From NCBI GenBank assembly GCA_019637585.1, contig JAHBVL010000002.1:62001-126000 (forward strand): 64,000 bases of DNA, in the 5' to 3' direction. The translations under genes were made by a program, and so were the position numbers. Below, piece by piece: positions 5,878 through 56,911 of the stretch; positions within the stretch are counted from its first letter, which is position 1; every line of letters starts with the position of its first letter. The notes beneath the pieces were generated by a model that worked only from the letters and a program-made list of their open reading frames with translations, did no database searches and had not been told where the DNA came from. This DNA is from Thermomicrobiales bacterium (lineage in GTDB: Bacteria; Chloroflexota; Chloroflexia; Thermomicrobiales; UBA6265).

Positions 5878-5903
5878 CTGGACCAAAGCAGGCGGGCGAC
5901 GAC

Positions 5904-6152
5904 GAAACCACCGGTTGAAACCGGTGGCTAAGACGCCTTGCCCGTAGCGAGCAAATCGCTGCCTCTGTTCATCACGTCGCCCGGGATGATTCGGCTATCC
6001 TGAGCGACGGCAGATTTTGACAACGAGCGAAACCACCGGTTGAAACCGGTGGCTAAGACGCCTTGCCCGTAGCGAGCAAATCGCTGCCTGTGTTCATCAC
6101 GTCGCTTGGGATAGCTTGGCTATCCTGAGCGACGGCAGATTCTTGCAACGAG
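5904..6152. repeat. 125-bp direct duplication, each copy headed by a hairpin
   Basis: Unit 1 is 5904-6028, unit 2 is 6029-6152. Each begins with the palindrome CCACCGGTTGAAACCGGTGG (5908-5927 and 6033-6052), then GCTAAGACGCCTTGCCC, and ends with GAGCGACGGCAGATT. The two differ at only a few positions. It lies between convergent genes. With the inverted copy at 6176-6200 it makes up almost all of the 330-base gap 5878-6208. Confidence 0.9.
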
Positions 6153-7432: not shown

Positions 7433-7645
7433 AGAGTTCATAGTTAATAGTTCATGGTTGATAGTTGATGGTTCGAGGCGCGTTGTGCGGTGCTCTGAAA
7501 TCCGCTTGCCTGGGCGAGTGTCTGACTGCCGGATTCCAGCTTGCAATCCTCCAAGCACCCTTGGCGATGAACTATCAACCATCAACTATCAACCAAGAAC
7601 TATCAACCAAGAACTATGAACCATGCACTATGAACTATGCACCAA
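7433..7645. repeat. Inverted heptamer-array element (ATAGTTN / NAACTAT)
   Basis: The left arm (7433-7474) has six 7-base units A(G/T)(A/G)GTTN. The right arm (7569-7645) has eleven units NAAC(T/C)A(T/A), the reverse complement of the left. The 94-base spacer is unrelated GC-rich sequence. The whole sits in the divergent gap between the flavoprotein gene and glcD; 7646-7726 has no other feature apart from the glcD leader. It has no coding capacity. Confidence 0.9.
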
Positions 7646-56619: not shown

Positions 56620-56695
56620 TGGTGCCCGCGGAGGGACTCGAACCCCCGACGCCCGCCTTAGGACGGCGGCGCTCTATCCACTGAGCTACACGGGC
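56620..56695 (-). tRNA. tRNA-Arg (anticodon CCT)
   Basis: Minus-strand cloverleaf: acceptor GCCCGTG/CGCGGGC (one G-U), anticodon arm CCGCC-GTCCTAA-GGCGG giving anticodon CCT, T-loop GGTTCGAGTCC, discriminator A and encoded CCA. Reads AGG codons. Confidence 0.97.
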
Positions 56696-56716: not shown

Positions 56717-56722
56717 AGTATA
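56717..56722 (-). promoter_or_regulatory. -10 box of tRNA-Arg
   Basis: TATACT on the minus strand, 21 bases before the tRNA-Arg 5' end and at the outer edge of the heptamer element. No TGN before it. Confidence 0.5.
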
Positions 56723-56798
56723 GCGGGCAGTGGGCAGCTGGCAGCGGGCAGCAACGTCCCGAACTACATTTGCTGCCTGCTGCCTGCTGCCTGCTGCC
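56723..56798. repeat. Inverted heptamer-array element (GNNGGCA / TGCTGCC)
   Basis: The left arm (56723-56750) has four units GCGGGCA, GTGGGCA, GCTGGCA, GCGGGCA. The right arm (56771-56798) has four exact TGCTGCC. The 20-base spacer includes CCCGAACTACATTTG. Degenerate heptamers CGCCGTC and TGCTCCC continue the right-arm register to 56812, where the TGCTATACT promoter begins. It separates divergent tRNA-Arg and tRNA-Pro. Confidence 0.9.
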
Positions 56799-56812
56799 CG
56801 CCGTCTGCTCCC

Positions 56813-56821
56813 TGCTATACT
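56813..56821 (+). promoter_or_regulatory. Extended -10 promoter of tRNA-Pro
   Basis: TGC-TATACT ends 12 bases before the tRNA 5' end. Its first seven bases lie in the 7-base register of the repeat array. Confidence 0.65.
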
Positions 56822-56833
56822 CTCCCTGCCTTT

Positions 56834-56911
<78 letters not shown>

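Follow-up and report, generated by a model that had tools for sequence, protein, structure and literature searches.

Facing heptamer arrays between two divergent tRNA genes in a Thermomicrobiales bacterium, and the period-7 arrays of its genome

The locus between tRNA-Arg and tRNA-Pro

The window, a stretch of 64,000 nucleotides of contig JAHBVL010000002.1 from a Thermomicrobiales bacterium (assembly GCA_019637585.1), contains a divergent pair of tRNA genes found with ARAGORN, tRNA-Arg with the anticodon CCT on the minus strand (56620-56695) and tRNA-Pro with the anticodon CGG on the plus strand (56834-56911). Between them lie two arms of heptamers. The left arm (56723-56750) consists of four GNNGGCA units, in the order GCGGGCA, GTGGGCA, GCTGGCA and GCGGGCA, with the G-rich strand on the plus strand, and the right arm (56771-56798) of four exact TGCTGCC units, none of them containing GGG, with the G-rich GGCAGCA on the minus strand; both G-rich strands are directed into a 20-base spacer to which no strand is assigned (56751-56770). 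The right arm is continued in the same 7-base register by a degenerate minus-strand tail (56799-56819) of CGCCGTC (56799-56805), TGCTCCC (56806-56812) and TGCTATA (56813-56819), the last of which is overlapped by a putative extended -10 box of tRNA-Pro, TGCTATACT (56813-56821, plus strand). A putative -10 box of tRNA-Arg, TATACT, lies on the minus strand and borders the left arm on its outer side (56717-56722, read from 56722 to 56717). This is the layout described in an earlier sequence-only reading, whose four units against four over a 20-base spacer proved exact to the base; the register does run through the three tail units into the tRNA-Pro box, and the mirror arrangement, with the tRNA-Arg box at the opposite outer edge, was confirmed, each arm running up to one of the -10 boxes.

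Each arm was called by TRF as a period-7 array. Three consecutive TGCTGCC units were found in the genome at 8 overlapping places belonging to 6 loci and the reversed control was found at none, so the facing heptamers are not a product of chance. Folded as single-stranded DNA, the region 56717-56821 reached -41.1 kcal/mol (z = -8.56) and none of 200 shuffled sequences folded equally well. On the minus strand the spacer and its flanking bases read CAAATGTAGTTCGGGACGTTG. This sequence is much like a shorter version of the palindrome GTAGTTCGGGCACCTGTGGCCCGACGT present elsewhere in the genome, from which it may derive.

A search for the tRNA pair returned 30 loci, of which 20 had both tRNAs in divergent orientation, 19 of them besides this genome; nine loci with one tRNA and one that was rearranged were dropped. 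No array was found at the divergent pair in any of the 19 relatives, all of them more distant since the genomes searched came from outside the genus, and their period-7 score did not exceed 5.8 as against 23.6 here. The motif TGNTANNNT was present upstream of tRNA-Pro in 16/19 and upstream of tRNA-Arg in 13/19 of these relatives, and the tRNA-Arg box of the present genome is without the TG of this motif. Because the extended -10 box of tRNA-Pro is kept in 16 relatives that are all free of arrays at this place, it is not derived from the array, and the array is ruled out as the source of the promoter. The suggestion of a replicating element that uses or supplies promoters thus falls as far as supply is concerned and survives only in the form of arrays grown locally.

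Period-7 arrays, their polarity and the edges of genes

Array density was taken from a sample of 464 kb, comprising the window and 20 stretches chosen by position. A period scan of this sample gave 29 arrays at period 7, 24 at 14, 18 at 21 and 9 at 28, with 0 to 9 arrays at each of the other periods from 2 to 30 that are not multiples of 7; the same 464 kb after local shuffling gave no period-7 array, and no other short tandem period is as common in the sample. With the addition of 19 stretches picked for pattern matches the set was enlarged to 94 arrays in 600 kb, in which density is biased upward. The 94 arrays were of the GGCAAAG type (37), GTCCG type (17), GCAGTC type (11), AGTNNAT type (11), GCAGGCA type (9) and GTAACT type (5), with two of GGCACTG and two others, and it was shown that period 7 holds across at least seven unit classes regardless of unit sequence. 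Of the 94, 75 were not mostly within a called ORF and 19 were, with the caveat that gene calls came from a simple ORF script without annotation and that some of the array-containing ORFs are probably false.

The window itself holds further elements of the same kind. A second facing pair has a left arm of AGTTCAT-type units on the plus strand (7435-7473) opposite a right arm on the minus strand (7567-7642), the whole (7435-7642) having a hairpin z of -7.9, and a single plus-strand array of 3.9 copies of AGGCGGG (1222-1248) was found by both TRF and the period scan. Longer tandem repeats were also seen in the window, namely a 38-base repeat of 4.5 copies at 1328-1496, just downstream of the array at 1222, and a 125-base duplication in two copies with 93% identity at 5899-6152.

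When arrays were oriented by unit class it became apparent that neighbours face one another. Of 26 pairs lying within 250 bp, 22 were facing, three ran in the same direction, one had an ambiguous member and none was back to back; the chance of 22 or more facing pairs in 25 under random orientation is 6e-11. In facing arrays the G-rich strand is directed inward. Orienting four ambiguous arrays by G versus C content then brought the facing pairs to 23. Both arms were of the same unit class in 16 of these 23, against 5.2 expected, and of differing class in the other 7, which rules out a simple palindrome or foldback copy. Hairpin z was above -4 in 10/23 facing pairs and cruciform potential, although strong at the tRNA locus, is therefore not their common feature.

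Arrays are also anchored to genes. For unpaired arrays the outer gene was the nearer in 21/25, with median distances of 12 and 116 bases. An outer gene was called for 79 arrays, which were divided almost evenly between its 5' side (40) and its 3' side (39), and in 32 of the latter 39 the array started no more than 14 bases from the stop or 3' end of that gene, often overlapping the stop, whereas the 3' ends of inner genes were never closer than 11 bases to an array. Stop codons within 12 bases of arrays were TAG in 18 cases, TGA in 8 and TAA in 3, compared with 170, 256 and 41 overall. TAG marked the outer edge in 25 of the 94 arrays, while each of four flank windows had it in 1 or 2 of 94, a comparison to be read with the caveat that this motif was first noticed and then tested on the same 94 arrays. 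Facing pairs were found in convergent, tandem and divergent gene contexts, and polarity follows the gene edge and not the direction of transcription. What the outer edge of an array abuts was shown to be a functional boundary, a stop codon or, at the tRNA locus, the two -10 boxes. One array-adjacent gene, for which 13 matches in relatives were compared, is full length, its C-terminus lying within a few residues of that of nine relatives (57-70% identity), with no truncation. In one of these 13 matches (L159), from a genome of another family, a different short heptamer run, of TAGCCAG units, follows this stop codon.

The search suggested by the sequence-only reading thus showed that phased facing heptamers recur throughout this genome and also in others, and no preference for promoters emerged, there being 40 arrays at the 5' sides of genes to 39 at the 3' sides. 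Among 11 tRNAs in the window and the position-chosen stretches two were near an array, both of them at the present locus, and an element specific to tRNAs or to promoters is rejected on these two counts. The same counts, together with the array-free state of all 19 relatives, speak against the proposal that the element co-regulates both tRNAs. For these tRNAs they also counsel caution, in that repeats which touch promoters need not regulate them.

Distribution and relation to known heptamer repeats

The distribution of the arrays is patchy. In 32 genomes of the family the degenerate unit pattern was matched 351 times in this genome, 154 times in a second (G002) and 0-7 times in each of the other 30. 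Across the phylum it was found in 86/350 genomes, a rough figure since the reversed control was also frequent in some of them. Seven neighbouring gene pairs were common to the samples of this genome and G002 and none of these carried an array. A further sample, made up of stretches (mostly picked for their matches) of 13 other genomes and of one Saprospiraceae locus, contained 19 neighbouring array pairs: 10 were facing, 6 ran in the same direction, 2 had an ambiguous member and 1 was back to back, which we would call facing too if it were judged by unit class. The 13 genomes held 111 arrays, of which 42 were set aside (12 ambiguous, 27 inside ORFs and 3 without two neighbours), and the outer gene was the nearer in 49 of the 69 that could be tested. 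A scan of named genomes for the facing GGCAGCA/TGCTGCC pattern gave a single match, in a Saprospiraceae MAG, and a scan of viral contigs for a facing GGCAAAG-unit pattern gave none.

The closest known system is that described by Rehm et al. (2015; PMC4692102), who reported GGGAATC heptamers in Xanthomonas and GGGGA(C/T)T heptamers in Nostoc and found no function for them. There the G-rich strand is directed away from the nearest gene, repeats overlap stop codons, convergent pairs number 70 in Xcc and 75 in Xac, and positions are 83% conserved between two Xanthomonas species. The arrays of the present genome agree with the published account in several respects: the tandem unit is of 7 bases, lies mostly outside genes and overlaps stops, and paired arrays converge, their G-rich strands leading away from the nearest gene. 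They differ in having at least seven unit classes, many without GGG, in arms of differing class and in the array between two tRNA promoters, whereas the units of Rehm et al. are tied to G-quadruplex formation. Since the units here are GGCAGCA and GNNGGCA and not GGGAATC, the arrays are of the same kind as the Xanthomonas repeats and not of the same family.

Other heptamer repeats are less similar. The TAACTGA repeats of marine Beggiatoaceae (PMC4679880) are likewise intergenic, near gene edges and patchy across phyla, but they are of one unit and almost always direct, with one inverted case, and a translational role has been proposed for them. Cyanobacterial STRR heptanucleotides are also tandem and scattered in the genome, although few facing pairs are reported for Nostoc in PMC4692102. 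The heptad parS bound by omega in pSM19035 (PMC4498918) resembles the present locus in its contiguous 7-bp repeats overlapping promoters; as described there, it is one defined operator with a plasmid partition protein. Satellites derived from a heptamer are listed for Chloroflexus aurantiacus (PMC6749651). A literature search on heptamer repeats, which covered few subscription journals, yielded no description of facing arrays from Chloroflexota. Facing heptamers are thus known from Xanthomonas, and those found here form a variant whose units fall into several other classes and which occurs elsewhere in the phylum as well. The over-representation of heptamers in bacteria has been noted before, without an accepted cause. 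Three features seen in one genome and in some others that were sampled restrict the range of mechanisms, namely that arrays face each other, that they are anchored to gene edges and that neither depends on unit sequence.

Possible origins of the arrays

The element between the tRNAs is probably one member of a class of polar heptamer arrays that is spread over the whole genome and fills dispensable DNA, and not a tRNA-specific regulator. The most likely origin is local growth of a slippage type with edges set by selection. Arrays would grow by repeated 7-base synthesis of this type away from a gene edge, the G-rich strand being presumably the growing 3' strand, and would survive only in dispensable DNA, their edges being fixed by selection on the neighbouring functional sequence. 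At the present locus both -10 boxes would already have been parts of the tRNA promoters and the arms would occupy the dispensable interval that separates the two; an influence on tRNA transcription, by way of the hairpin for instance, would be a by-product. A number of observations count against slippage. The strict facing polarity is not explained by plain polymerase slippage, nor is the restriction of hundreds of matches to 2 of 32 family genomes with 0-7 in the other 30; a unit class shared by both arms in 16/23 pairs, with 5.2 expected, is not predicted by independent local slippage; and 6 of the 19 pairs from other genomes run in the same direction. A gradient of unit divergence from outer to inner end, as a mark of growth, was not found in 61 arrays (p = 0.99). 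The positional conservation reported for Xanthomonas (PMC4692102) leaves room for function.

The facing polarity and the outer anchoring, in pairs and single arrays alike, would be accounted for if facing arrays were scars of repaired breaks, both 3' ends having been tailed with heptamers by an enzyme other than a reverse transcriptase and then joined. Facing arms would follow directly from such tailing and their edges would lie where end erosion met essential sequence; the usual sharing of one class by the arms of a pair and the two Ku matches in this genome are also in its favour. However, Ku was not matched in G002 and was matched in an array-poor genome (G022), so its presence does not track array number and it is rejected as the cause. 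RVT_1 had no match in this genome or G002, the two array-rich genomes of the family, which bars the reverse transcriptase version and counts against a telomerase-like origin. Moreover, many of the spacers between arms on the 5' side of a gene presumably contain a promoter, and erosion should have removed it. Break repair is on balance rather unlikely.

Two further readings are unlikely. In one, bacteria of several phyla would possess an unrecognised activity, independent of reverse transcriptase, by which heptamers whose 3' strand is G-rich are put onto exposed DNA ends or gene edges like a telomeric tail; facing arrays would be its scars, with the 7-base step and the polarity fixed as the unit sequence drifts. 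In the other, the arrays would be selected boundary elements, their G-rich repeats halting RNA polymerase, or some other machine, on its way out of a gene in either direction. Polarity follows the gene edge whether facing pairs lie in a convergent, a tandem or a divergent context, which is consistent with a boundary, as is the conserved position in Xanthomonas (PMC4692102), but most relatives have few arrays or none, an array is present in only 20 of 237 intergenic regions longer than 40 bases and unit sequence is free to drift.

It is very unlikely that the element co-regulates both tRNAs, whether as contiguous heptads bound by a protein in the manner of omega and parS or as a cruciform, with supercoiling extruding a hairpin between the promoters. 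The strong hairpin does cover both -10 boxes, and omega binds contiguous 7-bp repeats overlapping promoters in pSM19035 (PMC4498918). Omega_Repress had no match in this genome, and the control genomes were likewise without a match. At least seven unit classes, with arms that differ in 7/23 pairs, are hard to fit with one protein, weak hairpins in 10/23 facing pairs do not suit a cruciform, and arrays lie near just 2 of 11 tRNAs and are lacking at this place in 19 relatives.

A similarly low probability attaches to growth of the arrays from nicks made by Y1 (RAYT-like) transposases at REP palindromes in the spacers. REP-like palindromes do occur in several spacers, with a possible remnant at the tRNA locus, and Y1_Tnp (PF01797) was matched six times in this genome, as a REP/REPIN system with RAYT would have it, and three times in G002. 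In contrast to such a system the repeat is not itself a REP, the arms being 7-base tandem arrays and only the spacer resembling a REP remnant; most clusters of the REP pattern lie away from arrays (6/15 within 300 bases); and Y1_Tnp was matched in 16/32 family genomes, 14 of them array-poor, which rejects the transposase as a sufficient cause. Loss of mismatch repair is rejected because MutS1 was matched in 32/32 family genomes, four of these under the curated cut-off. None of RVT_1, Ku, MutS1 and Y1_Tnp accounts for the patchy distribution of the arrays.

Some minor observations were made in the same genome. Two adjacent Ku matches (G000:C12:431239-432541) may mark an end-joining locus. The palindrome CCCTCTCCCGCGGTCGGGAGAGGG is repeated in intergenic DNA (window 2876 and 2970, L009 8875, L028 7454 and others), where several copies adjoin heptamer arrays, and a second repeated palindrome, GTAGTTCGGGCACCTGTGGCCCGAC, is REP-like and starts with GTAG (L018 8419, L016 11259, window 42677 and others).
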